Origin: Sutcliffiella horikoshii
GTDB taxonomy: Bacteria; Bacillota; Bacilli; Bacillales; Bacillaceae_I
Length of the DNA: 64,000 bases
NCBI GenBank assembly: GCA_001636495.1
Contig: KV440964.1
Span: 2,682,666-2,746,665 of the forward strand
Direction of reading: 5' to 3'
Part shown: positions 24,326 to 49,957 of the stretch, piece after piece
How positions within the stretch are numbered: the first letter of the stretch is position 1
How the letters are laid out: each line of letters opens with the position of its first letter
The notes under the pieces: model-generated
The model's input: only the letters and a program-made list of their open reading frames with translations
Database searches by the model: none
What the model was told of the DNA's origin: nothing
Position numbers and translations under genes: made by a program

Positions 24326-24358
24326 ATCTTTAATTCAAGATTTATAACTTCAAGATAA
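24326..24358 (-). promoter_or_regulatory. MhqR-like operator of yceI
   Basis: TATCTTTAATTCAAGATT (24326-24343, plus strand) matches the B. subtilis MhqR consensus TATCTCGAATTCGAGATA at 14 of 18 positions. A second half-site TTCAAGATA lies at 24350-24358. Both sit at or just after the predicted transcription start, a repressor position. Confidence 0.5.
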
Positions 24359-24359
24359 A

Positions 24360-24388
24360 TTATATGCTCGGTATGAAAAATTGTCAAC
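24360..24388 (-). promoter_or_regulatory. Sigma-A promoter of yceI
   Basis: On the minus strand, TTGACA (complement of 24383-24388), a 17-bp spacer and TATAAT (complement of 24360-24365) are both perfect hexamers. Confidence 0.8.
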
Positions 24389-24502
24389 TACTATTTTTTC
24401 CTATAATTTACTCTGTTTTAAAAATATGAGATGCAACTCGTGACAAGGGAATATTCTTATGATATGTTGCAAGAAACAATGATGAATGAAAGGGGTGTAG
24501 CT

Positions 24503-25279
24503 ATGAAAAAGGAAGAAGAGGGAGAGATACAGGAGCAGTTCGAGGAACCTTCATTTGAGGACTTTCAAATAACTGAGGAAGAAATAGCAGCAAAAGCAAG
24601 GAAAAAACAAAAACGTCAAAAGACAGTAAAGTACATAACATTTGTTATCATTTTGGCACTGTTAGTAAATATATGGGGCCTCTTTCCACGTATAGTGAAT
24701 ATCCCTTCCATACAATTTTTGTTAAAATCCAACGAATTATCAAAAGATAGTAATATACAGGCATGGAAAGAAGCTGTTGTTACGATTAATGGGAACGGAA
24801 GAAAAGGAACTGGTTTTGTTATTGATTCAAGTGGATTAATTGTCACAAACTTTCATGTTATTGATAAAATGAATCTAATACAGATTTCATTCTCAAATGG
24901 AGAGATGTATTCCGCTGAAGTTATCAAGACGAACCCTGATAATGATTTAGCTTTGATGAAGGTGAAGGAGAATAATAATGATTTACCGGCATTACCGTTA
25001 ATTCAAGAACAGATTGACCCGAATCAACCTATATATATAATAGGTAATCCACTTGCACATAATTTTATTGTAAATGAAGGGACTACTGGAGAAATGGTTA
25101 AAACTAACCTAAGTTCAGACGCTATAATTATTAATGCTCCGGTTCATTCCGGGAACAGTGGGAGCCCCGTCATCACATCCGATGGGATTGTGCTAGGTGT
25201 CATATATGCGACAACGAAGGACAACCAGGGACTAGCAATCCCAGCTAAACAAATACTAGAGCTTTTAGACATAGAGTGA
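24503..25279 (+). CDS. Membrane-anchored trypsin-like serine protease (HtrA-related, no PDZ domain)
   Basis: A 258-residue protein. An acidic cytoplasmic tail (residues 1-40), one transmembrane helix (about 42-66, KYITFVIILALLVNIWGLF), and an external S1C protease domain follow. The triad is visible: His in IVTNFHVI, Asp in NPDNDLALMKV, Ser in GNSGSPVI. The protein ends soon after the protease domain, so the PDZ domain of HtrA is absent. The ATG at 24503 is preferred (AAAGGGGTG before it) over one 72 nt upstream. It is divergent from yceI. A TTGTCA-15-TATAAT promoter (24382-24408) overlaps the yceI promoter but has a short spacer. Confidence 0.8.
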   Translation: MKKEEEGEIQEQFEEPSFEDFQITEEEIAAKARKKQKRQKTVKYITFVIILALLVNIWGLFPRIVNIPSIQFLLKSNELSKDSNIQAWKEAVVTINGNGRKGTGFVIDSSGLIVTNFHVIDKMNLIQISFSNGEMYSAEVIKTNPDNDLALMKVKENNNDLPALPLIQEQIDPNQPIYIIGNPLAHNFIVNEGTTGEMVKTNLSSDAIIINAPVHSGNSGSPVITSDGIVLGVIYATTKDNQGLAIPAKQILELLDIE

Positions 25280-25324
25280 ATAAAAATCTAAAGTCTCTAA
25301 ACATACATAGAAGGAGACTTTCTT

Positions 25325-27919
25325 ATGAACAAATTGACCATCATTTATTCCATAGCCTTGGATCAGACTAAATACAAAATTAAAGAGGATATACAACAAT
25401 ACTTTGAAACAAAAGAAGACCTTCCTACCTTCACCGAGTATTTGCAGGACCGCAAGCATTATGTGGAACAAATCTGGTTTAATGTGTGGTTAAACAAGGT
25501 AACAAACGATGTTGCACGAAAAGAGAAGAAACAGGTCTTGAGTGAACGAGGGTTTGAAGTAGAAGGAGTAGATAAGAAAATAATCAACCAATTATTTAAA
25601 AATGAAATGAGGGAATATAATCCCTTTGATGCTCTAGAGTGGCTGAAGACTTCATCCAAAACAAACCCAACAGTTTGGGAAGAGGAGTACATTCAAGCCC
25701 GTAAAAATTTTCAAAAAAGAATGGAAGAAAAACGTTACCAACATAGAATGGAAGAGGCAAGGGACAAGGTCGATCAGGCAGCCCATAAGATAGTAGAAGT
25801 CAATCAAGCGGATTTCTTCCTGTACGTCAGACATTTTGTTGCCAAGAAAGTAAAAGAGGACTTTAAGAAAAATCCTAAATTCGAGGAAACAGATTCATAT
25901 CGTAGAGAGGATGTGTTAAAGGAGGCTGGACCTCTAAGTGCTTCCGATTATCACACTCTAAAGGATTTTTTCAGTGAACTGACCGGGGCTGTTCATCAAA
26001 GCTTTGATTATTATGAGGAATACCTAGAATACGAAACATATTATTTTTATTATGAAAAAAGAATAACGGACTATTTGTTCGGTTTTCTTCCAGGATTAAT
26101 AATGGAGGAACTTCCGGGAGAACTTCTATCGGAATATGAGACCATTACAATGGAAGAATTTACGGTATCCAAACTTAGAAAGTTACTAGCAAACTCCTTT
26201 TATTTATTGGTTAACGATTATATGGATAAACTCCAAGAAGAATTCGTGATGGACCTGCTCCATCTTGCTGAACAACCGTTCGACTTTAAGGCCCATGAGC
26301 AATACCTAGAACAGGATATCAAAGACAGGAAAAGAAAAGAAGAAGAGATACTGGCAGAAATCCGTAGGAAACAAGAAGAAGAGGAAAGGATGCTTGAAGA
26401 CATCTTCGGAAGAGAATATATTCCCTCAACCGGAAGAAGTACTCGGTATGTATTGCATGTAGGGGAAACTAATACGGGTAAGACTTTTCAGGCTCTGCAG
26501 AAGATGAAGGAAGCTAAAAGCGGCCTTTATCTTGCCCCATTGAGACTTTTGGCTTTGGAGGTATACGATACGTTAAATTCCGATGGAGTCCCATGCTCCC
26601 TTAAGACGGGAGAAGAAGAAAAGCTTTCTCCAGGAGCAGCCCACTTCTCCAGTACGGTGGAAATGTTTTATGAAAAAGAATTCTATGAAGTAATTGTCAT
26701 TGATGAAGCACAAATGATTGCAGATAAAGATAGAGGCTTCTCCTGGTATAAAGCAATTACGAAGGCTAATGCAGATGAAGTCCACATAGTCGGAAGCTTC
26801 AGTATGAAGGAAATGGTCCTGCAACTTTTAGGAAATGCTAATATTGAAATAAACGAATATAAAAGGGAAACACCTCTTCAAGTGGAAAACCGTCCTTTCT
26901 CTCTTTCGGATACAAAGAGGGGGGATGCACTTGTCTGCTTCTCCCGTAAACGTGTCCTTGAAACGGCATCCGTTCTTCAAAATAACGGACATCAGGTAAG
27001 CATGATATATGGCAGTATGCCTCCGGAAACAAGGAAAAAGCAAATGCAACGTTTTCTTGAAGGAGAAACTACGGTTATAGTGGCTACGGATGCCATCGGG
27101 ATGGGCTTGAATCTCCCAATCAGAAGAGTTGTCTTTTTGCAAAATGAGAAGTTTGATGGAATAAGAAGAAGGCGCCTGACCTCACAGGAAGTCAAACAAA
27201 TTGCAGGTCGCGCGGGTCGTAAAGGAATGTATGACATCGGGAAGGTGGCTTTTACAGGAGACATAAAAGCAATGGAAAGGTTGTTAGGTGGGGAAGATCG
27301 TCAAGTTCACACCTTTGCCATTGCCCCTACAAGTTCCATTCTTGAACGGTTTCAAAAGTATTCCAACAAACTCGGTGTATTCTTTGAGTTGTGGGATAAA
27401 TTTGAAAGTCCAGTGGGAACGGAAAAGGCGTCACTTGCCGAGGAACAGATACTTTACGAAACAATAGAGGACACCATGATTGAAGCAAGGCTTACGGTCA
27501 ACGATCTATATGGATTTTTACATCTTCCGTTTTCTACAAAAGAACAGACCCTTGTTAACCAATGGAAGCTAACGATGGAAGCTATCGTAACAAGGGAAGA
27601 ATTGCCGGAACCGTTCATGAATAAAGATAGCCTGGAAAATGTGGAGTTATCGTATAAATCTATTGGGCTTCATTTGTTATTTTTATATAGATTGGACAGA
27701 AGGACGGAAGCAGCGTATTGGGAAAAAGTACGTGAATCCTTCAGTGATGAGGTGCACGAACGACTGCAGACAGATGTTAAAATGCTGACGAAACAATGCA
27801 AGAAATGCGGTAAGAAGCTGGATCCAGAGTATAAATATGCAGTGTGTGATGCTTGTCACTTTTCCAAGCTACACAAAAAGCATAAAGATTTTCAAATAAA
27901 AAGACCTTTTAAAAATTGA
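25325..27919 (+). CDS. SUV3-like superfamily 2 RNA/DNA helicase
   Basis: An 864-residue protein. The first about 370 residues are charged, helical and of unknown function. The helicase core then begins with GETNTGKT (Walker A, about 379) and APLRLLALEV (Ia), typical of mitochondrial SUV3. It continues with VIDEAQMI (DEAQ, about 459), VGSFSMKE (III), SRKRV, VATDAIGMGLNLP (V) and QIAGRAGRKG (VI, about 625). A SUV3-type C-terminal helical region and a four-cysteine zinc ribbon (CKKCGKK and CDACHF, about 825-850) close it. It is probably a 3'-to-5' RNA helicase in RNA turnover; no exonuclease lies next to it. The start follows GAAGGAGAC. Confidence 0.85.
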   Translation: MNKLTIIYSIALDQTKYKIKEDIQQYFETKEDLPTFTEYLQDRKHYVEQIWFNVWLNKVTNDVARKEKKQVLSERGFEVEGVDKKIINQLFKNEMREYNPFDALEWLKTSSKTNPTVWEEEYIQARKNFQKRMEEKRYQHRMEEARDKVDQAAHKIVEVNQADFFLYVRHFVAKKVKEDFKKNPKFEETDSYRREDVLKEAGPLSASDYHTLKDFFSELTGAVHQSFDYYEEYLEYETYYFYYEKRITDYLFGFLPGLIMEELPGELLSEYETITMEEFTVSKLRKLLANSFYLLVNDYMDKLQEEFVMDLLHLAEQPFDFKAHEQYLEQDIKDRKRKEEEILAEIRRKQEEEERMLEDIFGREYIPSTGRSTRYVLHVGETNTGKTFQALQKMKEAKSGLYLAPLRLLALEVYDTLNSDGVPCSLKTGEEEKLSPGAAHFSSTVEMFYEKEFYEVIVIDEAQMIADKDRGFSWYKAITKANADEVHIVGSFSMKEMVLQLLGNANIEINEYKRETPLQVENRPFSLSDTKRGDALVCFSRKRVLETASVLQNNGHQVSMIYGSMPPETRKKQMQRFLEGETTVIVATDAIGMGLNLPIRRVVFLQNEKFDGIRRRRLTSQEVKQIAGRAGRKGMYDIGKVAFTGDIKAMERLLGGEDRQVHTFAIAPTSSILERFQKYSNKLGVFFELWDKFESPVGTEKASLAEEQILYETIEDTMIEARLTVNDLYGFLHLPFSTKEQTLVNQWKLTMEAIVTREELPEPFMNKDSLENVELSYKSIGLHLLFLYRLDRRTEAAYWEKVRESFSDEVHERLQTDVKMLTKQCKKCGKKLDPEYKYAVCDACHFSKLHKKHKDFQIKRPFKN

Positions 27920-27944
27920 TTTTTAATCAGATGAAGTAGTAAAA

Positions 27945-27979
27945 AAATGATCCTCGCAACTTTCGGGGATCATTTTTAT
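27945..27979 (+). terminator. Terminator after the SUV3-like helicase
   Basis: A 12-bp stem (AAATGATCCTCG and its complement, one G-U) with a 7-nt loop and a TTTTTATATTTTTT tail. Confidence 0.85.
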
Positions 27980-28050
27980 ATTTTTTGAATGTTTCTTGAA
28001 ATGATTAATACAGTATAAAAAGGAGTCTTTTTGGGGAAGGAGTGTTGATA

Positions 28051-29532
28051 TTGTCTACTTGGATATTACGTGGTGAAGCCAATAATATACAATCAAACAC
28101 CATTTCTTTTCCACTAGATATGTATGAACTGTTTCATATAAATCAAATGAAGGTAGGGGACAAAGTATACTATTGCGATAAAACTGATATTATCTGCATC
28201 TGCCAGGTAAAAACAATTACCCTATATAATCAAATTATCATTACGTTAAATATTGTAGAGCAGGGAGAGCCACTTTCATTAAAGTTTGTAAGGAAGCTTT
28301 GGGGTCTAAGGAATTTGGATATTTTCAAAATAGAGGATATTAAGGTGCTAGCACTTGAAATAGAAGAGGATGAAATTTTAAATTCTTATTGGAATAAACC
28401 TGGATCTGTGGAAGGATTGGTGAAGTATGATTTTTTGGATTTACATTTGTTTTTGTACAGTCGAGTTGCAGAGGTTTGGATAGGAGACATAGAGAAACAA
28501 ATATCCAAATATCATTTCTTCCATGCTTTTAGAAAACAAGAATATTTATCCATTATGACCTGGGAGGATTTCCAGAATTTCAGAGAGCAATTGTCGTTTT
28601 TACAAACAACTCTGCCAATGGAGAGGTTCTTTTCTGAGCAAAAAGCACCGATTGAACAATACAGACAATATTTTTTAGATATTCTTTTTGGAGAAGATAC
28701 TATTGATAAACGTTTGGACAGTTTCTACAAGGATCCTGTACGAAGGTTGATCGGTTTTGGTCATAAAGAAATCGGTGAATTAATTCATTATCTTTTCCCG
28801 AATTTCTTTTGTCGATTTACTCATAAAGAGATAGTGGCAGTAGAAAGACTGTTTAAAGAAACACTTTTGAAAAGTACATATAATACCATTGGTTCTAAAG
28901 TTTATCATTATCAAAAATTAATCAACGAAAGCTATTTATTAAATAAGTATATTAACATTGTAGGTAGAAAGACGGAATTACCGATCTATTATGAAATTAA
29001 CTGTTTTTTACAATATATATACGATACACATTCTGAAAGTGAAAATGGTGACAAAGAAGAAACGTCCGAGGCGAAAGAGAATAAGAAGTATTGGATTTAC
29101 ACTATTCAAAATGGAATGGATACCAATTCTTTTTTTGAAGAAGGGATGCTTACTTTTAATCACGGGAAGCTGGGGAATATTAGAAACTATTCATCTCGAA
29201 AAGAAATCTGGGATAGTTACCGGCAGATTTATAGCGCGACCAAAGTTCCTTATTTAGAAACTTCTGCTTTATATCAATTTTGTCATGAGATGGATGAGGG
29301 TGATTATGTTTTTGTTAAGAATGATAAAGAGCAGATCGTTGGCTTAGGCCGAGTGTGCTCACCTTACATGTTTCCTAAATTCCCTAACTCTCCGTCCTTC
29401 AGAAAAATAGAATGGATTCGCACTGGAAGCTGGACTGTAAATGGGATGCTGTTCTCTAGAAAGACACTTGTCAATATTACAGCTAAACAAATCTCATTAT
29501 CCTATTTGCTCGATATCATTCCTGAAAGGTAA
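28051..29532 (+). CDS. Protein with two predicted PUA/EVE-superfamily reader domains and no catalytic domain
   Basis: A 493-residue, AT-rich, aromatic-rich cytoplasmic protein. The N-terminal about 100 residues (STWILRGEANN, then VGDKVYYCDKT and ICQVKTI) read like an EVE/PUA-type fold. The middle (about 110-330) is helical with no known motif. The C-terminal about 150 residues follow the pattern of the modified-base-sensing N-terminal domain of McrB-like restriction proteins. They run from YWIYTIQNGMD to EGMLTFNHGKLGNIRNYSS, then ALYQFCHEMDEGDYVFVK, VGLGRVCSPY and FRKIEWIRTGSW. No GTPase, AAA or nuclease motif is present. AAGGAG lies 8 nt before the TTG at 28051, better spaced than the GTG at 28042. 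Binding of modified nucleic acid is inferred, not shown. Confidence 0.55.
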   Translation: MSTWILRGEANNIQSNTISFPLDMYELFHINQMKVGDKVYYCDKTDIICICQVKTITLYNQIIITLNIVEQGEPLSLKFVRKLWGLRNLDIFKIEDIKVLALEIEEDEILNSYWNKPGSVEGLVKYDFLDLHLFLYSRVAEVWIGDIEKQISKYHFFHAFRKQEYLSIMTWEDFQNFREQLSFLQTTLPMERFFSEQKAPIEQYRQYFLDILFGEDTIDKRLDSFYKDPVRRLIGFGHKEIGELIHYLFPNFFCRFTHKEIVAVERLFKETLLKSTYNTIGSKVYHYQKLINESYLLNKYINIVGRKTELPIYYEINCFLQYIYDTHSESENGDKEETSEAKENKKYWIYTIQNGMDTNSFFEEGMLTFNHGKLGNIRNYSSRKEIWDSYRQIYSATKVPYLETSALYQFCHEMDEGDYVFVKNDKEQIVGLGRVCSPYMFPKFPNSPSFRKIEWIRTGSWTVNGMLFSRKTLVNITAKQISLSYLLDIIPER

Positions 29533-29534
29533 TA

Positions 29535-29570
29535 AAGCACCTCACAAATTTACAGTGAGGTGCTTCTTGT
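29535..29570. terminator. Bidirectional terminator
   Basis: AAGCACCTCAC pairs perfectly with GTGAGGTGCTT around a 9-nt loop. It serves the reader-domain gene on plus and overlaps the end of the SGNH gene on minus. Confidence 0.85.
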
Positions 29571-30925
29571 TATTGAAATCTAGTTTTTCTTCTGAGAATC
29601 AGTACAATTGACATGTATGAAAGACCAACAAACAGTAAGCCCGCTCCCCAAACTAAGTAGTTATAAGAAGTTGTAGCTGTATTCGGAAGTTTATTTCCAC
29701 TCTTAGCCACTTTCTTCTTTTCTACCGGTTGTTTCGTTTCAACTTTTTTTACAGGTGGAGGAGGAGTGTTATCTTCTTCTTCAACTGGAGGTGATTCTTC
29801 CGCAGGAGGCTCCTCTTCGACAGGCGGTTCTTCTTCTGCAGGAGGCTCAACAGGCGGAACAATATTTGTAATATCTATTTTCTCTAAAGCATAGATTTGT
29901 TGGTTATTGAGAGCTAAAACTGTATATATCCCGTTATCAGTTACTTCAAAAGAGAATGTTTCAAGGATATCATTTCCCCCTTCACTAAAATCAGAAAGGT
30001 CTCTATCGCCTTGTAACCAGAATAGCAGTTGAACATCATCCTTATTTTCGGTTTCAATATTAACAGTAACTGGCCCTTCTGTCTCTTCAGTAGTAGATAC
30101 AGAAACCTTTATTTCAAAAACAGGTTGGGGTTCTGGTGCTGGCAGTAACTCAACTAGTTTTTCTGTCGTTACAGCCGCCAATGCAGCATGTCCCTTTGGA
30201 GTAGGATGAATATCCATCGGGTAAACATAAGTACTCTGGTTACCTTCGAATACTGTATAGGCATCAATGATGAAGACACCTATGCTCGATAGCTCCTCTG
30301 ACTGAGAAGCCATGTTTACGTTGACAGCTGCAGCAATTTGTCCTCCCACATCATTTAGAAAGTACCCAAAAGGACTAACTTCTTGGTCCACTGCTGGGAA
30401 TGGATTATATATATTATAGATGAAAATTGGTGCTTCTGACTTTGATCTTATAGTTGCAAAAATGGTAGATAGGTTTTTTGCTAAGTCTTGACTTGCTTGT
30501 AAAGCACTAGCCTGCATCTGCGCTAGTTGAACTGGGTCAGTAACAGGAGTTTGCCTTTCTACTATCTCACTAAAACCAATTGCTTGTAAGATATCATTAC
30601 TGCCTATGTTTATTGTTATAAGATCCGCATTTTCTACTTCTGTTAATACTTTAGCATCAATGCTACTTAATAAAGCACTGGATGTAGCTCCTGGAACACT
30701 TAAATTAACAACTTCTTGATTACCTCCCAGTATTAAGTTAGGGAAGGCAATTGGAGATGGAAATGAGTTGGGTTCTTTCGGAACGTACCCGAAGGAAATG
30801 GAATCCCCTAGAGATACAATCTTAGCCTTAGGATCAGATACTTCTTCTGCAGAAACAAAGTTGGAGTCGAAAAGGTTAAAAACGAGCAACACAGCAAACA
30901 AAAATGACAGGTGTTTCAGCTTCAA
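29570..30925 (-). CDS. Sortase-anchored SGNH/GDSL hydrolase (LPNTA)
   Basis: A 451-residue surface enzyme. Signal peptide about 1-27. The SGNH catalytic blocks are SLGDSISFG (Ser, about 42), a Gly in the LSVPGATS segment, NIGSND (Asn, about 107) and DIHPTPKGH (Asp and His, about 238-246). A Pro/Glu-rich spacer (about 355-395) follows. The C-terminus is a sorting signal: LPNTA (about 413), a hydrophobic helix and RRKTRFQ. LPNTA suits class D-type sortases rather than the usual LPXTG enzyme; none is in the window. It is probably an esterase or lipase on the cell wall. AAGGGGGA lies 8 nt before the TTG at 30925. The upstream interval to 31191 holds the cstA control region. Confidence 0.85.
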   Translation of the reverse strand: MKLKHLSFLFAVLLVFNLFDSNFVSAEEVSDPKAKIVSLGDSISFGYVPKEPNSFPSPIAFPNLILGGNQEVVNLSVPGATSSALLSSIDAKVLTEVENADLITINIGSNDILQAIGFSEIVERQTPVTDPVQLAQMQASALQASQDLAKNLSTIFATIRSKSEAPIFIYNIYNPFPAVDQEVSPFGYFLNDVGGQIAAAVNVNMASQSEELSSIGVFIIDAYTVFEGNQSTYVYPMDIHPTPKGHAALAAVTTEKLVELLPAPEPQPVFEIKVSVSTTEETEGPVTVNIETENKDDVQLLFWLQGDRDLSDFSEGGNDILETFSFEVTDNGIYTVLALNNQQIYALEKIDITNIVPPVEPPAEEEPPVEEEPPAEESPPVEEEDNTPPPPVKKVETKQPVEKKKVAKSGNKLPNTATTSYNYLVWGAGLLFVGLSYMSIVLILRRKTRFQ

Positions 30926-31128
30926 CAAAAAATCCCCCTTGATTGGTTATGTATTCATATAAAATTACATGAATCTTCCACATTATAAGACTATTTGTCG
31001 GAATCTTCAATAAAAATTAGTTCTTACGACATACTTAGTGATTAACCGACAAAGTACTACTATCCTCCTGATTTAAGACCTACTATTAAAAGTTACGTGT
31101 ATTTAGTATGAATTTTCAGATATTAATA

Positions 31129-31145
31129 TTGACAACGCTTACATT
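31129..31145 (+). promoter_or_regulatory. cre (CcpA) site before cstA
   Basis: TTGACAACGCTTACATT matches the cre consensus with one mismatch. Its first six bases are a perfect -35 hexamer; a weak TACTCT stands 17 bp later. CcpA bound here would block RNA polymerase, in agreement with catabolite repression known for cstA in B. subtilis. Confidence 0.65.
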
Positions 31146-31191
31146 GATTAGTACTCTTTTCTTGTATACATAGAAAGAGGGAGGAGTTAGG

Positions 31192-32934
31192 GTGAATTCT
31201 GTATGGTTGGCTGTTATCGGAATTATTGTATTTGCTTTAGGCTATCGTTATTATTCAAAATTCATTGCAGAAAAGATTTACCGCCTGGATCCTGATTATG
31301 TAACACCTGCCCACAAGTATAACGATGGGGTGGATTTTGTACCGACAAAAAAAGTGGTTCTTTGGGGACATCATTTCTCCTCTGTTGCAGGAGCATCCCC
31401 TATATTAGGTCCTGCAATTGCACTTTATTGGGGATGGGGGCCAGCATTCCTTTGGGTCATACTTGGTACCGTGTTTGCTGCTGGCGTTCATGATTTTGGG
31501 ACACTGGTGCTTTCGGTCCGTAACAAAGGACAATCTATCGGTACATTGACTGACCGCTTAATCGGCAAGCGTGCAAAAATGCTATTTTTATTTATCATTT
31601 TAATTTTAGTTCTCATGGTCAACGCCGTGTTCGCATGGGTTATCTCGAACCTGTTCATTCAGTTTCCTGCAGCGGTATTGCCAATTTTCATCGAAATTCC
31701 AATTGCAATCTGGATCGGCTATGCCGTTTATAAAAGAAAAGCAAAAATGCTCCTTCCATCCTTGATTGCCTTAGCAGTTATGTATGGGACAGCGGTATTG
31801 ACAAGTAAGGTGCAGTTCTTGCAAATCGATTTGGTCCGTTATTTCGGTGGAGCGGATAACACAGTTATCTTCGGGTTGGATGGAGTATCGATGTCCTTCT
31901 TCGTCTGGATAGTGATATTGCTGATTTACTGCTATATAGCATCTACATTACCAGTATGGAAGCTACTTCAACCGCGTGACTATATCAATTCCCACCAATT
32001 GGTTGTAGGTTTATTGATGCTTTATGCCGGGTTGCTTGTACTTCGCCCTGAACTTACGGCTCCAATGACAAATGAAGTGAGCGATGTTTCCTGGTTCCCG
32101 TTGCTTTTCATTACTATAGCTTATGGTGCCATTTCAGGATTCCACGGACTTGTCGCATCGGGGACTACCTCGAAGCAGTTGGATAAAGAAACAGATGCAC
32201 GTTTTGTAGGTTATTTAGGGTCTGTCGGAGAAGGGGTTCTTGCACTGATCTCCATTATCGCAGTAGCGACATTATTCGCCAATGCAGGTGATTTCAGAGC
32301 AGCCTATTCTGACTTCGGAGCAGCAAGTCTAGGTGGTATGTCCAACTTTATCAACGGTGCTGCCCAGCTTGCTACGGGTATCGCGATACCCGCTGATATT
32401 GCCAGAACTATCGTTACGGTCATTGTTGTTAGTTTTGCGGCAACAAGCTTGGATACCTCTCTACGATTAATGCGTTACATCATCGCGGAAATCGGAAGTG
32501 AATACAATTTCAAGCCGTTGACAAAAATGCATGTGGCAACCTCTGTAGCTGTGGTATCAAGTGCTGCATTGGTTTTAATACCTAAAGGTCCGAACGGGTT
32601 CGGGTCAGGTGGTTACTTGCTCTGGCCGCTATTCGGTACAAGTAATCAGCTATTGGCGGGTGTCAGCCTACTGTTAATCTCCGTATGGTTGAAGAAGCAA
32701 GGAAGGAATTTCTTCTATACATTTGTGCCGATGGTATTCGTATTCTCCATGACGCTTTATGCCATGTTTGTTCAAGTGGTATTCCAATGGTCAGGACTTG
32801 GGGAAACAGACGCGAACATGCTTCTATTCATTCTAGGTGGAATCATCTTCGTGTTCGCATTTTGGATCATACTCGAGGCGTTCAGAGTATTTTTCAAAAG
32901 TGACAAGTCTCCTCCAATAGATCGATCCATGTAA
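31192..32934 (+). CDS. cstA: CstA-family transporter (pyruvate/peptide uptake)
   Basis: A 580-residue polytopic membrane protein of the carbon starvation family. Marks are YRYYSKFIAEKIYRLD at the first loop, VLWGHHFSSVAGASPILGPAIA, AAGVHDFG, SGFHGLVASGTTSKQL, and the C-terminal LWPLFGTSNQLLAG. Relatives take up pyruvate (BtsT, CstA) or peptides when preferred carbon is scarce. The GTG start follows GGGAGGAG. It is controlled by the overlapping cre site and ends with a strong terminator. No two-component lytS/lytT-type regulator is adjacent. Confidence 0.92.
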   Translation: MNSVWLAVIGIIVFALGYRYYSKFIAEKIYRLDPDYVTPAHKYNDGVDFVPTKKVVLWGHHFSSVAGASPILGPAIALYWGWGPAFLWVILGTVFAAGVHDFGTLVLSVRNKGQSIGTLTDRLIGKRAKMLFLFIILILVLMVNAVFAWVISNLFIQFPAAVLPIFIEIPIAIWIGYAVYKRKAKMLLPSLIALAVMYGTAVLTSKVQFLQIDLVRYFGGADNTVIFGLDGVSMSFFVWIVILLIYCYIASTLPVWKLLQPRDYINSHQLVVGLLMLYAGLLVLRPELTAPMTNEVSDVSWFPLLFITIAYGAISGFHGLVASGTTSKQLDKETDARFVGYLGSVGEGVLALISIIAVATLFANAGDFRAAYSDFGAASLGGMSNFINGAAQLATGIAIPADIARTIVTVIVVSFAATSLDTSLRLMRYIIAEIGSEYNFKPLTKMHVATSVAVVSSAALVLIPKGPNGFGSGGYLLWPLFGTSNQLLAGVSLLLISVWLKKQGRNFFYTFVPMVFVFSMTLYAMFVQVVFQWSGLGETDANMLLFILGGIIFVFAFWIILEAFRVFFKSDKSPPIDRSM

Positions 32935-32937
32935 GCT

Positions 32938-32979
32938 AAAAAGAGAGGATGAAGCATTTTGCAGCATCCTCTCTTTTTT
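32938..32979 (+). terminator. Terminator after cstA
   Basis: AAGAGAGGATG pairs with CATCCTCTCTT around a 13-nt loop that folds further, with a T tract after. Confidence 0.85.
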
Positions 32980-33272: not shown

Positions 33273-33286
33273 GAGGGGAGTAATGA

Positions 33287-41513: not shown

Positions 41514-41536
41514 GTATATAATCTATAGAAGAATGG

Positions 41537-41580
41537 TGCCTTCATTTCTAAGAATGTTTAGGATGGGGGCATTTCGTTTG
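41537..41580 (+). terminator. Probable terminator after the lipoprotein gene
   Basis: TGCCTTCAT pairs with ATGGGGGCA (two G-U pairs) around a 17-nt loop, with TTTCGTTT tail. Confidence 0.5.
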
Positions 41581-41680
41581 TAAATTTGTAAAAAGGCATA
41601 AATAAAACTCGAAAATTGATAGATTAATGGTAAAATAGTCGATATGACAACATATGGAATATGTAAGAGGAGGAAACGTG

Positions 41681-42589: not shown

Positions 42590-42629
42590 TAAATGCATAC
42601 GTACGTTTTCAAGAGGCAGGTGATGAACA

Positions 42630-43265
42630 ATGCTGAAAGAAGAAGAAGCTAGAGAGAAACTGGAAGAAATATTAAACAGGGATGAGTATCGAATTTATTA
42701 TGCTGACAATAGAAACTCACTGCAGATGTGGTGGGATGAAGTGAAAGCCTGGCTGGCGGACTTACTCTCCAGGCTTTTTCCTTCCATGGAAAATACAAGC
42801 GGGACAGCCGGTAACATTTTGATTCTAATTTTAGGGCTTGTCATCATAGGTATGGTAGTCGTCCTGTCCATCTACATTAGCAGATACAGAAAGAATCGAA
42901 CCATTAAAGCCAAACAGCCATTTCAATCCAGTAATGAAATGGAATGGTCCTATCATCAACATGTGGCAGAGGCAAAAAAATATGAAGATGTGGAAAACTA
43001 TTCGCTTGCAACACGCCATCTTTTTCTGGGAATGCTTTTATATTTCCATGAAAAAGAATGGCTCGAGGCAAAAATCTGGAAAACGAACTGGGAATATTAT
43101 GAGGAACTGAGAAAAGGACATAAAAATCAAGCAGATGTATTTTTCAACTTTGCTCTCTTGTTTGATCGGGCAACATATGGGAAGCAACAAGTTTTTAGAG
43201 ATGATTATCAACCTTATCGGGAGATTGCGATGAAATGGTTGAATGATAATGACGATGAGAGTTAG
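42630..43265 (+). CDS. DUF4129-domain membrane protein
   Basis: A 211-residue protein. The amphipathic N-terminus (LEEILNRDEYRIYY, then WWDEVKAWLADLLSRLFP) is typical of the domain, followed by one transmembrane helix (about 60-85) and a cytoplasmic C-terminal DUF4129-type domain from about 110 (YSLATRHLFLGMLLYFHEKEW). DUF4129 proteins regularly accompany MoxR and DUF58 genes. Spacing to the next gene is 18 nt, so the genes are co-transcribed. AGGTGATG lies upstream of the ATG. Confidence 0.75.
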   Translation: MLKEEEAREKLEEILNRDEYRIYYADNRNSLQMWWDEVKAWLADLLSRLFPSMENTSGTAGNILILILGLVIIGMVVVLSIYISRYRKNRTIKAKQPFQSSNEMEWSYHQHVAEAKKYEDVENYSLATRHLFLGMLLYFHEKEWLEAKIWKTNWEYYEELRKGHKNQADVFFNFALLFDRATYGKQQVFRDDYQPYREIAMKWLNDNDDES

Positions 43266-43283
43266 ACGGAAGGAGGGAGTCAT

Positions 43284-44420
43284 TTGCAAAGATCTACTGC
43301 TAAGAAAAAAGGTTGGCTATGGCTCGGTCTACTACTCTTTTTATTCCTAATTTGCATCTACTTTATATTATCCAAACAGCCACAGGAATACTCACCATAC
43401 GATTCTAGGTCACCTTCCCCTAGTGGCATAAAGGCATTCTATACATACTTGGGCAATGAGACCTCCGTTGTGGACAGATGGGAACAGTCTTCCAAACTAC
43501 TTCCCGAATCTCAAGGACGTCATTTGTTGCTGTTGGTGGAACCATTTGTCATACCGGACACGGAAGAAATGGAAGCATACATTGATTTCATGGAACAAGG
43601 AAATACCATCCTCTTGATGAAGAACAATCCGAGGGGATTCTTTGATATACGTACCATGTTTGTAGAAATGATGTTCTCTGAACAAACAGTTTTTGATTCA
43701 ACCGAAACGAGTTATGAAGCGGATATCCATTCTTCCGTAAGAATAGAAAAATCGGTAGATGACAAAGTTCTGCTTTCTGATTTTCACGGTGCTATTGCTG
43801 TGAAGCGGGAATACGGGGAAGGTGCACTTATTGTCTCATTGGCACCGAACTGGCTTATGAATGGCGAAATACTAGCGAAGGATCATCTTCCTTTAGTACT
43901 CGGACTATTGCAGGAAGAAGGAATGGATTATAGCCATATTCTCTTTGATGAGTACAATCACGGGGAGACAGGAACATCATCTCTTGATGTCTATCAGTCT
44001 TGGTTCTTGCTTCTACTTTTTCAAGGTCTATTATTGACGATTCTATTGCTTTGGATGCTCGGAAAAAGGTTTGGCCCTATTCTACAGCCAAGAGAAGAAA
44101 CTGTCCGTTATAGTGATGAGAGCATTCGGGCATTGGCAGCTTGGCATATTAAAGGTAATGCCTACCAGGATTCCCTCCAAACACAGGCGGGATATGTAAA
44201 GTACTTGATGCAAGAAAAGTGGGGAGTACCTTTTAATAGGGATTGGAAAGATTGTACCGGAATTCTTCATAAAAAATGGACGACGATGGATAACGGGAAA
44301 ATAGATTTATTTTTGCATCAGTTAACCATGATTTTAAGGAAAGATAAGATTTCAAAACAGGAATATTTACTCTGGTCCAAACAACTGGATACTTTACGAA
44401 AAGAGGTGGAAGAGGGATGA
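43284..44420 (+). CDS. DUF4350-domain membrane protein
   Basis: A 378-residue protein. A transmembrane helix lies at about 10-30, then an external DUF4350 domain (about 40-230; SPYDSRSPSPSGIKAFYTYL, with a ThuA-like Rossmann layout). A second transmembrane helix (about 235-260, FLLLLFQGLLLTILLLWMLG) and a cytoplasmic tail with RRFGPILQPREE-like start follow. The TTG start lies after AAGGAGGGAG. Its stop overlaps the start of the MoxR gene (ATGA, 4 nt), so the two are translationally coupled. Confidence 0.75.
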   Translation: MQRSTAKKKGWLWLGLLLFLFLICIYFILSKQPQEYSPYDSRSPSPSGIKAFYTYLGNETSVVDRWEQSSKLLPESQGRHLLLLVEPFVIPDTEEMEAYIDFMEQGNTILLMKNNPRGFFDIRTMFVEMMFSEQTVFDSTETSYEADIHSSVRIEKSVDDKVLLSDFHGAIAVKREYGEGALIVSLAPNWLMNGEILAKDHLPLVLGLLQEEGMDYSHILFDEYNHGETGTSSLDVYQSWFLLLLFQGLLLTILLLWMLGKRFGPILQPREETVRYSDESIRALAAWHIKGNAYQDSLQTQAGYVKYLMQEKWGVPFNRDWKDCTGILHKKWTTMDNGKIDLFLHQLTMILRKDKISKQEYLLWSKQLDTLRKEVEEG

Positions 44421-45346
44421 AGCCGGAATTAGCATCTCTACTTGAAAGATATGAGGAAAGAATACTGGGACAAAACTTGAATGTAAGGCTATTACTAGCT
44501 TCCGTATTAGCTGGCGGGCACGTTCTATTAGAAGGTGTGCCTGGCACGGGGAAAACACAGATGGTACGTACACTTTCAACATTATTGGGAGGTACATTTA
44601 ATAGAATTCAGTTTACCCCGGACCTGTTGCCAAGTGATATTACGGGAAGCTCCATTTACAATATGAAGGAAGGGACCTTTGAAACGTTGAAAGGCCCCAT
44701 CTTTACAAACATTATGCTTGCAGATGAAATAAATCGGACCCCGGCCAAAACCCAGGCGGCATTGCTTGAGGCGATGGAAGAGAAGCAGGTAACCATACAA
44801 GGGGAAACCTTTCCTTTGCCAGAGGTGTTTTTCGTAGTTGCAACTCAAAATCCAATTGAGTATGAAGGGACTTATCCGTTGCCAGAAGCACAGCAGGATC
44901 GCTTCCTTTTCAAGTTAAATATCGATTTTCCTAGTCTTGAAGAAGAGACCGCCGTTCTGAAACAGGTAATAGGCAAGAAGTTTACCCACACTGATGTCCA
45001 GCCCGTCTTGGACATAGAAACCTTTCTTTCCATAAGAGAGGAAATACAGCAGGTCACACTTAGTGACAACATCATGGATTACATCATGCAAATCGTGAGA
45101 AAGACGCGTGATTCGGATTCCATCCGCTTTGGAGCAAGTACTCGTGCTGCAATATCAATCGGAAGAGCTGCGCAAGCGTGGGCTTACTTAAGCAACCGGA
45201 ACTATGTGACGCCTGATGATATAAAAATGGTAACAAAACCAGCTTTACGACACCGTATACAATTATCTCCTCATATGGAATTGGAGGGATCGACTGTTGA
45301 GCAAATCATTGAAGAACTTGTGGGGGCGGTTCCTGTTCCGAGATAA
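44417..45346 (+). CDS. MoxR-family AAA+ ATPase
   Basis: A 309-residue MoxR ATPase. Walker A GVPGTGKT (about residues 40-47), Walker B LADEINRT (about 105-110), sensor 1 VATQNPIEYEGTYPLPEAQQDRF, and sensor 2 SIGRAAQAWAYL with TRAAISIGRA. MoxR proteins act as chaperone ATPases for von Willebrand factor A domain partners, here the DUF58 protein encoded next. The last 50 nt overlap the DUF58 start. Confidence 0.9.
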   Translation: MKPELASLLERYEERILGQNLNVRLLLASVLAGGHVLLEGVPGTGKTQMVRTLSTLLGGTFNRIQFTPDLLPSDITGSSIYNMKEGTFETLKGPIFTNIMLADEINRTPAKTQAALLEAMEEKQVTIQGETFPLPEVFFVVATQNPIEYEGTYPLPEAQQDRFLFKLNIDFPSLEEETAVLKQVIGKKFTHTDVQPVLDIETFLSIREEIQQVTLSDNIMDYIMQIVRKTRDSDSIRFGASTRAAISIGRAAQAWAYLSNRNYVTPDDIKMVTKPALRHRIQLSPHMELEGSTVEQIIEELVGAVPVPR

Positions 45347-46658
45347 AGGTGTTCTGCCAACAAAAAAACTGGTACTGTTACATGCATTGCTATCGTTATC
45401 CTTTATCATTGCCAGCTTCTTTGTTGCAATTTCCTGGCCGGTCATCTTTTTACTGAACGGATTTTACTTACTTTTCAGCTTGGTAGACCTGGTATTTTCT
45501 CCAAGTAAAAAAGCAGTGAAAGTTGAAAGGGTTCTACCTGCAGAGATGGAGCGCGGCATCACCTATCCTGTTCAGATTGTCGTGGATAATCCAACTGACG
45601 AAGCTATGATTTGTGAGTTGAAAGATGGAATTCCACAATCCTTTGTCAGGCCGTTCCCATTAAGGGCTGTAGTCGAAAAAGGTTCCAGAAAGTCATTCAC
45701 CTATAATACAGTCGCTCCAGTAAGAGGGGACTATAAGGTAGAAAAACTTTTTTTACGCTATAATAGCCGAATCGGTTTGTGGAAAAAACAAATAGTGGTG
45801 GAGCAAAGTCATTCCGTTATAGTGATTCCAGATATGACGGAAACTAAGCAATACTTGGAGAATGCTCAAAGATTTTTGATTCATGAAGGTGTTAACATCC
45901 GAAAACAAAAAAGCGGCGTCGGGGAATTTGCAAAAATCCGGTCCTATGTTGTCGGTGATGATCCCCGGAAGATAAATTGGCGCCAGACTGCAAAACTACA
46001 GGAAGTCATGACCAATGAGTATGAACCAGAACACGGAAAATATATTACGATACTTGTGGATTGCGGAAGGATGATGGGGGCCGAACTAAAAAAAGGGAAT
46101 CGCTTGGAAAAATCGCTCGAAGCAGCACTTACCGTGGCTGCAGCTGCTCTGCAAAAAGGGGACTATGTCGCTGTACTGGCATTTTCTAAAAAAGTGAAAG
46201 CCTATATTCCACCTGCAAAAGGAATGCCTCACTTGCAAACTATCTTGAAGGCAATCTACAATGTTCAAGTGGACGCGGCAGAATCGAATTATGCAGAGGT
46301 TTTCCAATATCTCCAGCTTGTACAAAAAAAGCGAAGTCTCATTCTTTTGTTCAGCGATGTGAAAACTTTTCTGCATGAAGAAAGTGCCCTCATCTACTTA
46401 AAAAAAGTTAGACAGAGGCACCTTTTCTTCATGATTGGCGTCGACGATGAGACCTTGGTGACAAGGGCAAAGACAGTTTCCAACACACTAGAAGAAACCA
46501 TGGTGAAAGGAGTCGCCCAACAGCAACTTCTCATAAAGAAACGCGAGAAGTCAAAGTGGGAAAAACAAGGCCTCCTAATGATGGAGGCCCGTGAAGAACG
46601 GCTTGCAACAGCCGCGGTATCCCATTATATTGACACAATAAATAGAGGTCTATTGTAA
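45297..46658 (+). CDS. DUF58 domain protein (VWA-like partner of MoxR)
   Basis: A 453-residue protein. Two adjacent N-terminal transmembrane helices (about 24-65), a beta-rich extracytoplasmic or linker region, then the DUF58 block (about 200-235; GVGEFAKIRSYVVGDDPRKINWRQTA) and a von Willebrand-A-like domain with VDCGRMM in the metal-site position. The TTG start at 45297 lies inside the MoxR gene, 8 nt after GGAGGG, giving a 50-nt out-of-frame overlap. The 3' end overlaps the convergent SpoIIM-like gene by 9 nt. Confidence 0.85.
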   Translation: MSKSLKNLWGRFLFRDKGVLPTKKLVLLHALLSLSFIIASFFVAISWPVIFLLNGFYLLFSLVDLVFSPSKKAVKVERVLPAEMERGITYPVQIVVDNPTDEAMICELKDGIPQSFVRPFPLRAVVEKGSRKSFTYNTVAPVRGDYKVEKLFLRYNSRIGLWKKQIVVEQSHSVIVIPDMTETKQYLENAQRFLIHEGVNIRKQKSGVGEFAKIRSYVVGDDPRKINWRQTAKLQEVMTNEYEPEHGKYITILVDCGRMMGAELKKGNRLEKSLEAALTVAAAALQKGDYVAVLAFSKKVKAYIPPAKGMPHLQTILKAIYNVQVDAAESNYAEVFQYLQLVQKKRSLILLFSDVKTFLHEESALIYLKKVRQRHLFFMIGVDDETLVTRAKTVSNTLEETMVKGVAQQQLLIKKREKSKWEKQGLLMMEAREERLATAAVSHYIDTINRGLL

Positions 46659-47612
46659 CTGCGCTTTTTGCAATCTGAATTTACCTATTGCAACATAAAG
46701 TATCAAACCGACGACTGTCAAACCTGCCACAGAATATTTGGCTTCCAACGGTATAGCAGCAGGGGTAATAAAACCTTCAATTATCCCTGCTATAATGAAT
46801 AAAGGTATTGTCCCAAGTAACAGCTGGACAGAACGCTTGGCATTGACTTTCAGCTGGTAGCCTCTTGAATATTCTCCAGGTACGAACAGCTTATAACCCA
46901 TCAGCAGGCCCGCACCACCAGCTATAAAAATCGCTGTCAATTCAATCATTCCGTGGGGAACGATGTACGCCCAGAACTCATACGTCATACTATGGTGCCA
47001 AAATAATCCGGCAATGGCTCCGACAATGATGCCATTGTAAATCAATACATATACTGTCAGCAAACCAAATGTGACCCCACCTGCAAACGCAAGAATTGCC
47101 ACCTGAATATTATTAGTCAAAATACTGGCAGACATCACCGGCGCATCCTGCATTCCATCACTAGTACCAAGCTTTTCCGGATCGATGCTTTGAGCCATAT
47201 CTGGAGAAAGAATGGAATACACATAAAGTGGGTCTTGCAATACGGCAAAGAATGCCCCGAGCCCTCCAATAGTAAATAGAAGCATGGCAATCACGACAAA
47301 CTTCCATTGTTCATAGAGAAGTCCGATGAACTTATGTCCAAAGAAATCAGCCGCCTGCTTCCAGCTCGTAATCTGATCTTTATAGAGTAGATTATGAGAT
47401 TTAGAAACAAGACCATTTAAATAGGATGTCACTTCCTCATCCGGAAAGTAGGTCTGACTATAGGACAGATGTTGTGCAGCCTTTTGGTAGAGACGATGGA
47501 ATTTTTCCAGGTTTTCACCCGTAATATTTTTTCTTTTATGTAAATCGGAGGCAAGCTGTTCAAGCTCTTTCCATTGATCACGATGTTGTTTTATAAATTG
47601 TTTGACATTCAT
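46650..47612 (-). CDS. SpoIIM-like (DUF95) multi-pass membrane protein
   Basis: A 320-residue protein. The N-terminal about 100 residues are soluble and helical; then come about six membrane helices with the DUF95 core (AGGVTFGLLTVYVLIYNGIIVGAIAG, HGMIELTAIFIAGGAGL). SpoIIM of the B. subtilis engulfment complex shares this core but lacks the long N-terminal part. This longer form commonly travels with RDD, MoxR and DUF58 genes outside sporulation. The ATG at 47612 is preferred (AGGTG 7 nt before it). It is convergent with DUF58 and divergent from the RDD gene. Confidence 0.75.
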   Translation of the reverse strand: MNVKQFIKQHRDQWKELEQLASDLHKRKNITGENLEKFHRLYQKAAQHLSYSQTYFPDEEVTSYLNGLVSKSHNLLYKDQITSWKQAADFFGHKFIGLLYEQWKFVVIAMLLFTIGGLGAFFAVLQDPLYVYSILSPDMAQSIDPEKLGTSDGMQDAPVMSASILTNNIQVAILAFAGGVTFGLLTVYVLIYNGIIVGAIAGLFWHHSMTYEFWAYIVPHGMIELTAIFIAGGAGLLMGYKLFVPGEYSRGYQLKVNAKRSVQLLLGTIPLFIIAGIIEGFITPAAIPLEAKYSVAGLTVVGLILYVAIGKFRLQKAQLQ

Positions 47613-47720
47613 TCCTTTACACCTCGTGTCTGATTTCATCAATCTATTCCATTATAGTAATATTGTAGAAAAATAGAAACACTTCTTAGTTAAATTTATC
47701 CATAGAAAGAGGGAATCATC

Positions 47721-48524
47721 TTGAACACAGAACAAGTGGATATCAAAACCCCCGAATATGTATCCTTGCAATTCCAAGCAGCAGGCCTGGGCAGCCGGGC
47801 AGCCGCATTCATAATCGATTCACTCATCTTAATCGCAATCAATATTCTCATTGTGATAGCACTAATAATTGGACTGAATGCTAGTTTTTTCGATTACTTC
47901 CAGTCAGACATTCCATCCTACCTGTTTGCAGGCATCATCATTCTTATGTTTGTCCTAAACTGGAGCTACTATTTCCTACTGGAGTATTTTACAGGCGGAC
48001 GAACACTGGGTAAAAAAGCGCTCGGAATCCGTGTCATCCAGGAAAATGGCCATAGCATCACTTTGCTTTCTAGTCTGATACGAAACTTCTTACGAATCAT
48101 TGATATGCTGCCTGTCAATTACCTGGTTGGAATGCTCATGATCTTTTTCCACTCCAAGCATAAACGACTTGGAGACCTGGTTGCCGGAACGATTGTCGTA
48201 CATGAAAGAAGAGGGAAGAAGAAAAAGAAGAATTCGAAGCTAGACAAACTGATTGCCAAAAAAGGTATTAGCGCTGAGGTTGGTCTAGTAGACGAGTGGG
48301 CTTTGAGATCCCTAGGAGCCAAGGAATGGAAACTGTTGAAGACATACGCGGAACGTTTTAACACCTTAAACACAGATGACCGCATCGTATTGACCCGCAA
48401 AATGGCCGATATCCTATTTCCGAAGATCGGACTTGATCCTACGAGTAAACATTATGATGAGTTGGAAGATATGCTGCTGATGCTTTATTTGCAGATGAAG
48501 GAAGAATGGGAGTATGAGTTGTAG
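47721..48524 (+). CDS. RDD-family membrane protein
   Basis: A 267-residue protein. The RDD domain spans about 12-165: GSRAAAFIIDSLIL at helix 1 (the R and D of the name), SYYFLLEYFTGGRTLGKKALGIRVI between, and KRLGDLVAGTIVV at the end of helix 3. The remaining about 100 residues form a soluble tail of charged helices with a KKKKKN linker. The TTG start follows AGAAAGAGGG. It is divergent from the SpoIIM-like gene; together they form the membrane half of the MoxR-associated cluster. The transport substrate, if any, is unknown. Confidence 0.8.
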   Translation: MNTEQVDIKTPEYVSLQFQAAGLGSRAAAFIIDSLILIAINILIVIALIIGLNASFFDYFQSDIPSYLFAGIIILMFVLNWSYYFLLEYFTGGRTLGKKALGIRVIQENGHSITLLSSLIRNFLRIIDMLPVNYLVGMLMIFFHSKHKRLGDLVAGTIVVHERRGKKKKKNSKLDKLIAKKGISAEVGLVDEWALRSLGAKEWKLLKTYAERFNTLNTDDRIVLTRKMADILFPKIGLDPTSKHYDELEDMLLMLYLQMKEEWEYEL

Positions 48525-48559
48525 GCGGGGGTTAGTTTTTGAGTTTGTTATAGGAGGGG

Positions 48560-48645
48560 AGCGGCGTTGGAATATGCGTGTTATGTGTGTTGGCTAGGTT
48601 CCACATGGGAGGAGAGCCTGATTTCCAGGATACGCCGCTTTTTTC
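48560..48645 (+). terminator. Terminator-like long hairpin after the RDD gene
   Basis: AGCGGCGT (48560-48567) pairs with ACGCCGCT (48632-48639), followed by TTTTTT. An inner TGGAA/TTCCA pair extends the stem. The loop is long (about 50 nt). Confidence 0.5.
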
Positions 48646-48748
48646 ACTGAAGGGGGGATTGGTGCATTAGAACTTCGGTTTTGGTTTTTATTTAAAATAA
48701 CAAATTAGGGATTTAGGTGGTGTAAGTAGATGCATAATATTATGGTGC

Positions 48749-48840
48749 CGCCGAATTGTTCTTTGTTTTCGCTGAAAAAAATTCATTTTCGCCGGATTAA
48801 TTTCAAAATCGCTGAATTATCCATATTTTCGCCGGAATGA
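48749..48840. repeat. 20-bp tandem CGCYGRA repeat (five copies)
   Basis: CGCCGAA, CGCTGAA, CGCCGGA, CGCTGAA and CGCCGGA start at 48749, 48770, 48790, 48810 and 48830: spacing 21, 20, 20, 20. Four are preceded by TTTT or AAAT and followed by an A/T-rich filler. No reading frame or spacer logic is visible. Apart from this array and the hairpin before it, the interval 48525-48930 holds only a TATAAT-like promoter element near 48894. Confidence 0.75.
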
Positions 48841-48930
48841 GAAAAACTGAGATTAAATCATCGTGTGAATCGGGACTAAATCCCTATATTAATGTATAAT
48901 TTACTACACACAACTGATTGGAGGAAGAAA

Positions 48931-49911
48931 ATGATACTTAAAACGAGAGAATTGCCTCTCAATATACTAGTTTTAGAAGCTATTGAAAGACGACTCGAAA
49001 ATGACCACCCCAAAATGCCTCGTATTAAAGAGTTATTAGCTAAGTATAGAAAAGGACACAGAGGCGAACACTCCATTGATTACCCTTTAAGCATTCTCCC
49101 TGAAAAGGAATACCTCATTCTACACAACATCCGCTTACAGTTCCAAAAACTTCATTTTCAAATTGACACTTTACTTATTTGCTCTAGATTTATTCTATTG
49201 TTAGAGGTGAAAAACTTTGGTGGCACCATTTTTTTCGATAGGAAATTCAATCAACTTATTCAAACATATCACGGAAACGTTAAAAGTTATACATGTCCAA
49301 TTATTCAAGTTAGTAACCAAGAAAGACTTCTCCGACAGTGGTGTGGACAACACAATTTTAATGAAATCCCCATAATTTCCTTAGTAGTGATAAGCGACCC
49401 TTCTTCAATGATTAAAATAGATCCTGCTGATAGAACAACTTTTCAAAAAGTTATTCATAGTCATTACCTACCAACTAAGATTGAGCAGCAAAAAACCATT
49501 ACGAATAAGACCGTATATTCTTTAAAAGAGATGAAAAAGCTGGCACGAACATTAATAAAACACCACAAACTTAATACCACTCATATCCTTCGTTTGTTAG
49601 ACATAGACCCCTCGGAAATAAAAACTGGAGTACAATGCCCAATCTGTAGTTACATCCCTATGGTAAGAAATAATGCACTATGGCATTGTGATGAGTGTCT
49701 ACACAGAGCTAAGGAGGCACACATGCCTGCTTTGAAAGACTTTTTCCTTATTTTCAATGAGACAATTACAAACAAAGAAGCAAGAGAGTTTTTGCATTGC
49801 TCATCACCTGACACCATCAAAAGGATTCTTTGTTCTCTACATCTACCAACTTCAGGAAAAACAAAATCTAGAAAGTATTCTTTAACACCCCTTATTCACC
49901 CGCCACCAATT
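48931..49911 (+). CDS. NERD-domain (nuclease-related) protein with zinc finger
   Basis: A 327-residue protein; the stop codon overlaps the mhqO promoter. The NERD domain covers about 40-160: KGHRGEHSIDYPLSIL, then HFQIDTLLICSRFILLLEVKNFGGTI, holding the D-ExK type acidic and Lys residues of the nuclease fold. A C-terminal four-cysteine zinc finger (CPICSY and CDEC, about 245-265) follows. GGAGGAAG precedes the ATG at 48931. It is a single-gene unit with a TATAAT-like element upstream near 48894. The cellular DNA target is unknown. Confidence 0.8.
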
Positions 49912-49957
49912 TGACATCCACCTTAAACCACAATATAATTATCCCGAATTCAAGATA
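49911..49957 (+). promoter_or_regulatory. Perfect sigma-A promoter followed by MhqR-like operator
   Basis: TTGACA (49911-49916), 17 bp, TATAAT (49934-49939), both perfect. Directly after it, TATCCCGAATTCAAGATA (49940-49957) matches the MhqR consensus TATCTCGAATTCGAGATA at 16 of 18 positions. The site covers the transcription start. Confidence 0.8.

Follow-up and report, generated by a model that had tools for sequence, protein, structure and literature searches.

A YceI-family lipocalin gene as a predicted member of the MhqR-type quinone-stress regulon in Sutcliffiella horikoshii

The two loci and their promoters

The window analysed here (the whole stretch of 64,000 nucleotides from contig KV440964.1 of Sutcliffiella horikoshii) carries yceI, which encodes a YceI-family bacterial lipocalin, and, on the opposite strand, a gene for a ring-cleaving dioxygenase of the mhqO/mhqA type. 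Each is preceded by a promoter with a palindrome resembling the operator of MhqR, a quinone-sensing repressor of the MarR family (Table 1). An earlier reading made from the letters alone (the sequence-only reading) had placed both genes in one predicted quinone-stress regulon, and this proposal is supported by the operators, by an MhqR homologue in the genome and by the conservation of the sites. The name mhqO is assigned from context; no curated MhqO or MhqR model was matched when NCBIfam models were compared with the candidate regulon proteins of the genome.

Table 1. Genes, promoter boxes and predicted MhqR-type operators at the two loci of the window
Feature	Position	Strand	Remarks
yceI	23760-24290	minus	YceI-family bacterial lipocalin, 176 amino acids; Pfam PF04264, E 1.5e-51
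-35 box TTGACA of yceI	24382-24387	minus	read in the sequence; aligned across the family
-10 box TATAAT of yceI	24359-24364	minus	read in the sequence; aligned across the family
O2, strong MhqR-type operator of yceI, AATCTTGAATTAAAGATA	24325-24342	minus	14/18 to the consensus TATCTCGAATTCGAGATA
O1, weaker half-operator of yceI, TATCTTGAAGTTATAAAT	24340-24357	minus	10/18 to the consensus; directly after the -10 box
mhqO/mhqA-type ring-cleaving dioxygenase gene	49997-50977	plus	glyoxalase fold, 326 amino acids; Pfam Glyoxalase, E 1.1e-11; NCBIfam
-35 box TTGACA of the mhqO-type gene	49911-49916	plus	read in the sequence
-10 box TATAAT of the mhqO-type gene	49934-49939	plus	read in the sequence
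MhqR-type operator of the mhqO-type gene, TATCCCGAATTCAAGATA	49940-49957	plus	16/18 to the consensus; immediately after the -10 box

Both promoters had been described as TTGACA and TATAAT boxes separated by 17 bases and followed by an MhqR-type palindrome, and the coordinates hold, as do the match counts of the two full operators; the extra half-site that had been noted at yceI is O1 of Table 1. Specifically, the yceI promoter consists of TTGACA, the 17-base spacer, TATAAT, a single T and then TATCTTGAAGTTATAAATCTTGAATTAAAGATA. When the -10 box is taken as -12 to -7, the operator of the mhqO-type gene falls in the same register as that of mhqRED in Staphylococcus aureus (-6 to +12; PMC6798810). 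With the start site of yceI placed from its promoter boxes, O2 lies at about +11 to +28, some 15 bp further downstream than the canonical register seen at the mhqO-type promoter, and O1 occupies that register to within one base. The spacing of O1 and O2 is 15 bp and they overlap by 3 bp, an arrangement that may reflect two overlapping repressor dimers, with the one on O2 partly blocking elongation. Over 16 genera, the offset of -15 from O2 has the second-highest mean matrix score, yet a low one (-3.2 versus 20.9 at O2 itself). The promoter of azoR (L037:4202-4234; L294-L309) likewise combines, within 33 bp, two inverted MhqR half-sites with the 15-bp offset found at yceI.

The window was scanned with a matrix built from six sites, namely five of this genome (including that of the mhqO-type gene and excluding that of yceI) and the S. 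aureus site. Sites of at least 14 bits occur in the 64 kb only at the yceI and mhqO-type promoters, and the next best place scores 12.2. Across the whole genome, a degenerate form of the palindrome with at most two mismatches gives 41 forward and 42 reverse matches, versus 15 and 18 for the reversed pattern used as control. Seven distinct places have at most one mismatch, and five of these lie at promoters (those of mhqD, yceI, both mhqO-type genes of the genome and a catE-type gene), the remaining two (1985474 and 2186662) being inside open reading frames (ORFs). Six places with two mismatches were picked by eye for inspection: those at azoR, mhqR, the bdbC-type and the wrbA-type genes, and those at 4025218 and 2105048. 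The place at 2105048 precedes an ORF, and the weaker MhqR-like site at 4025218, TAGTTTCAATTCAAGATA, precedes a DUF4397 gene (L035:4219-4236).

Conservation of the yceI operator

YceI is present in all 18 genomes of the family, with 78-98% identity between the protein of the window and those of the other 17, and its operator is kept in all 18. The palindrome at yceI, whose conservation in sister species the sequence-only reading had singled out as a check, is therefore retained in the family, and it is found in many other genera as well. In the 16 genomes of the genus of the window, TTGACA, TATAAT and the next 34 bases are nearly unchanged while the flanks diverge; in the two other genera of the family, the promoter differs at several positions and O1 is altered, and a site of 18-20 bits is retained. 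The mhqO-type gene of the window also has an orthologue in all 18 family genomes, and its operator agrees with the consensus at 17 or 18 of 18 positions at the orthologous promoters of the other 17.

A wider set comprised 111 yceI upstream regions, which represent 50 genera and 27 families (110 of the 198 YceI-bearing genomes of the order, plus one further genome, G003), leaving out the second YceI of G002 (L058, 48% identical) and second yceI copies elsewhere, and it was scanned with a matrix trained without any yceI site. A site was found in 71 of the 111 regions (15 families, 24 of the 50 genera), several of the sites being perfect palindromes, and 57 of the 71 lie some 40 to 70 bases ahead of the start codon. 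In the controls, none of the 111 reversed ones gave a match, shuffled sequences matched in 0.27% of 2220 cases, and distal windows (-500 to -300) matched in two of 111, both from a single genus in which the proximal site is present too. Among the named loci (the best 80 of at least 555), 34 have a site of at least 14 bits within 200 bp of yceI, with examples in Sutcliffiella, Litchfieldia, Fredinandcohnia, Cytobacillus, Neobacillus, Peribacillus and Robertmurraya, and none in the 15 loci from flavobacteria. One of the YceI proteins of S. horikoshii in this set is 96% identical to that of the window, in keeping with its genus.

These counts bear on the simplest alternative, namely that the palindromes are chance matches in AT-rich DNA and that the two promoters are unrelated. 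The yceI site on its own, with 14 of 18 matches in such DNA, would indeed be weak evidence. The contrast between the upstream regions and their reversed and distal controls, together with a site that is nearly invariant while its flanks diverge, makes this explanation so improbable that it can be given practically no weight. Simple co-occurrence of yceI and MhqR was dropped as a test because 355 of the 397 genomes of the order have an MhqR match.

The MhqR homologue and its predicted regulon

A second check named by the sequence-only reading, the presence of an MhqR homologue in the genome, also came out in favour of its proposal. The protein is encoded at C1:3350516-3350974 and, in an alignment of 136 residues, shares 39.7% identity with S. 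aureus MhqR (PDB 9QDR; PMC12893000), which is its best solved relative (E 1.3e-27); for comparison, the S. aureus and Bacillus subtilis MhqR proteins are reported to share 39.4% identity (PMC12893000). The four quinone-pocket residues of the S. aureus protein, F11, F39, E43 and H111, are all kept (F17, F45, E49 and H117 in the alignment, in a comparison whose numbering offset of 3 was deduced from residue types). Of the six DNA-reading residues, S64, S66, Y69 and R90 are kept, and S65 and S68 are replaced by G and T. Just upstream of mhqR itself, TAGTTTTAATTCAAGATA or a close variant stands in the 15 examined loci of the genus (L152-L166); 14 of these sites reach at least 14 bits and the fifteenth scores 12.4; the site of the window genome was part of the matrix training set.

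In this genome, pattern search and reading of neighbourhoods place operators before mhqD, a second mhqO-type gene, a catE-type dioxygenase gene, azoR, a wrbA-type quinone reductase gene, a bdbC-type gene and mhqR, in addition to the two genes of the window. When the best copy in each of the 18 family genomes is considered, the operator is kept at mhqD in 18 of 18, at azoR in 17 of 17 (the eighteenth genome has no azoR match), at the wrbA-type gene in 15 of 17 (one genome has no match) and at the catE- and bdbC-type genes in 13 of 18 each; most of the misses at the last two are copies of lower identity, not all of which need be orthologues. At second copies the operator is mostly missing (0/2 examined for each of mhqD and the wrbA-, catE- and bdbC-type genes), and the second mhqO-type gene has a site of 15/18 or better in 10 of the 11 loci examined out of 19 found. 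The Sutcliffiella MhqD matches the NCBIfam MhqD model over its full length, at a score below the cut-off (210 versus 325 bits). A predicted regulon wider than the sequence-only reading had proposed, and including yceI, is well supported by these sites.

The regulon members described in B. subtilis and S. aureus (azoR2, mhqNOP, mhqED and mhqA; mhqRED) share with the present prediction the operator sequence, a MarR-type repressor with the same quinone pocket, and mhqO, mhqD and azoreductase members (PMC6798810, PMC12893000). The S. aureus operator, like that of the mhqO-type gene here, directly follows the -10 box (PMC6798810). The prediction made here adds yceI and the wrbA-, catE- and bdbC-type genes, and it differs further in the double operators of yceI and azoR with their 15-bp offset and in the order mhqD, yojF, bshB2; yceI does not figure in the member lists given in the available portions of the published accounts (PMC6798810, PMC12893000).

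Two of the predicted members have surroundings or promoters of separate interest. Downstream of mhqD, yojF (after a gap of 91 bases in this genome) and bshB2 follow in 18 of 18 family genomes (L031:4431-6209, equal to C1:2577430-2579208; L311-L328), with a score of 330 bits to the BshB2 bacillithiol deacetylase model, so that bacillithiol metabolism may be tied to MhqR through a putative operon. The bdbC-type disulfide oxidoreductase gene has the promoter TTGCAT-17-TATAAT with an MhqR-like site (L032:4197-4214; L350-L361, L364).

An MhqR gene lies within 1.5 kb on either side of yceI in six of the 111 loci, representing five distinct genomes (L063 and L142 are identical over the compared stretch and were counted once). 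The order yceI-mhqR-mhqD on one strand is found in Litchfieldia salsa (L063/L142), and the same order recurs in two further genomes (L145 and L139), with a small gene between yceI and mhqR in L139. The two genes are divergent in L141, and in a metagenome-assembled genome of the Clostridia (L119) an MhqR-like gene (48.6% identical) is followed by yceI on the same strand. A small membrane-protein gene, presumably similar to DoxX, precedes yceI in the mhqR-mhqD cluster of L139 (L139:2183-2686).

It could be argued that yceI is controlled, instead of by MhqR, by a different repressor of the MarR type with the same operator preference. MarR paralogues can have operators that resemble each other, and the genome has 10 matches to the MarR family (PF01047) at E<=0.001, eight of them above the cut-off. 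Against this, the MhqR homologue is its own sole match in the genome at E<=1e-15, yceI adjoins mhqR in the five genomes just described, and the same operator precedes mhqR, mhqD and the mhqO-type genes. A paralogue acting in place of MhqR is accordingly a quite unlikely explanation.

Fold and possible ligands of YceI

The AlphaFold2 model of YceI has a mean predicted local distance difference test score (pLDDT) of 90.5, and its best matching folds are E. coli YceI (1y0g), 7bwl and the polyisoprenoid-binding protein TT1927b (1wub). The template modelling score (TM-score, by query length) is 0.87 to both 1wub and 1y0g, the identity to TT1927b in the structural alignment being 38%, and the Saccharophagus structures 2x32 and 2x34 are less close (about 0.7). 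The first predicted strand spans residues 4-8; because the barrel is not preceded by any N-terminal extension, the protein is probably cytosolic. TT1927b, the E. coli protein and the Saccharophagus proteins are grouped as polyisoprenoid-binding YceI proteins, whose fold the present YceI is predicted to share. Crystallised relatives hold octaprenyl phosphate, octaprenylphenol or ubiquinone-8 in the barrel (PMC9113575), one Saccharophagus structure being among those with ubiquinone-8 (PMC8981238), and YceI proteins are widespread, their physiological role having been called unclear (PMC5350466). By analogy with these relatives (PMC9113575, PMC8981238, PMC5350466), this YceI may bind prenylated quinones, which would tie lipid-quinone binding to electrophile defence.

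A partial parallel is offered by BcnA/LcoA of Burkholderia cenocepacia, a YceI-family lipocalin that also acts in defence and for which ubiquinone-8 has been named as a possible natural ligand (PMC9113575). BcnA/LcoA, however, is secreted, and its link is to a gene for cytochrome b561, whereas the YceI considered here lacks an N-terminal extension and is associated with MhqR and with enzymes acting on quinones. An independent hint of a role in quinone stress comes from S. aureus treated with the quinone methide kendomycin, for which average ratios of 5.93 for a YceI-like protein and 5.38 for an azoreductase are listed (Table 2 of PMC4721675).

The ligands of the relatives also leave room for another function under the same repressor. 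In such a scheme yceI is controlled by MhqR, but YceI does not act on quinones as such and serves as a carrier of membrane lipids or undecaprenyl-type compounds, induced together with the other members as quinones or similar drugs damage the membrane and the respiratory chain. The octaprenyl phosphate and octaprenylphenol seen beside ubiquinone-8 in crystals (PMC9113575) would fit a carrier of this kind, as would the report that B. subtilis L-forms grow better with an insertion in mhqR, an effect shared by the loss of ispA, a gene of the polyprenoid/menaquinone route (PMC4510147). However, the other predicted members mostly cleave rings, reduce, hydrolyse or handle thiols, which speaks for quinones themselves as the target, and we regard the lipid-carrier scheme as a serious possibility, albeit a rather doubtful one.

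Proposed mechanism and points for and against it

Taken with the sites and the neighbourhoods, the explanation that we favour, and consider likely, is that yceI belongs to the MhqR regulon, that it is released by quinones, and that YceI binds quinones or similar electrophiles in the cell. When quinones are absent, MhqR dimers would bind O2 and, less strongly, O1 beside the -10 box, blocking transcription of yceI, and a further dimer would occupy the operator that precedes the mhqO-type gene. A quinone bound in the MhqR pocket would cause the repressor to leave the DNA, and YceI would then be made together with the mhqO- and catE-type dioxygenases, the azoR and wrbA-type reductases, the hydrolase MhqD and MhqR itself. 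Inside the cell, the YceI barrel might bind hydrophobic or prenylated quinones, or similar electrophiles, and either sequester them or pass them on to the reductases.

Several observations weigh against this explanation. At the promoter, O1 matches the consensus at just 10 of 18 positions, and in 14 of the 71 regions with a site the highest-scoring position is over 70 bases upstream of the start codon. In the repressor, two of the five base-reading residues are changed (S65G and S68T), and S65 is reported to be essential for DNA binding by S. aureus MhqR (PMC12893000). In other species, S. aureus MhqR is reported to control mhqRED only, in an account whose main text does not mention YceI (PMC6798810), and yceI of Staphylococcus epidermidis fell under alpha-mangostin (log fold change -1.26; PMC6372523). 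Across genomes, 33 of the 103 examined yceI regions from genomes with an MhqR match are devoid of the site. The other 70 have it, versus none of seven from genomes where MhqR has no match at E<=1e-15 (seven of the 12 such yceI genomes that were identified, for several of which absence was deduced from their not being among the matching genomes), but this comparison is weak because four of the seven belong to one family (f41) whose nine examined MhqR-bearing members have no site either. The corresponding Fisher value of 5e-4 ignores shared ancestry, draws four of its seven negatives from that site-less family and counts G003, which was outside the MhqR search and has the site, as MhqR-bearing.

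No report of MhqR control of yceI, or of a link between MhqR and YceI or polyisoprenoids, was found in the open-licence literature, a scope that excludes the original B. subtilis MhqR paper. The conserved link of yceI to a repressor with a known ligand makes the role of YceI directly testable in a non-pathogenic relative, and it suggests that cells guard themselves against quinones with a binding protein as well as with dioxygenases and reductases.

A second palindrome at yceI in other Bacillales

A different palindrome, TTACN5GTAA, is found near the start of yceI in some Bacillales that do not carry the MhqR site (L187, L188, L192, L218-L220, L239-L242 and others). In the form TTACN5GTAA[CG] and within 200 bp of yceI, it occurs in 16 of the 40 regions without an MhqR site and in eight of the 71 with one; in the controls, TTACN5GTAA is found in none of the 111 distal windows and in 0.18% of shuffles. 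The presence of another promoter palindrome in part of the order is a lead towards a possible exchange of regulators.

A broader proposal, which we put forward only tentatively, is that quinone binding by a cytosolic YceI could be a core part of how Gram-positive bacteria respond to electrophiles. In many Bacillaceae-type genera YceI would be under MhqR, at times in a single row of genes with mhqR and mhqD, and in other Bacillales under another repressor (perhaps of the HxlR/DUF24 type). The regulator would have been swapped and the link to electrophiles kept, with menaquinone or lipophilic quinones being carried to reductases. When the two HxlR proteins of the genome were used as queries, an HxlR/DUF24-type gene was found beside yceI in two of the 111 loci, L077 (2199-2510) and L104 (1003-1368); TTACN5GTAA is present at yceI in the former and absent in the latter. 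In one family (f39), both this palindrome and the MhqR site stand at yceI in all four genomes examined.

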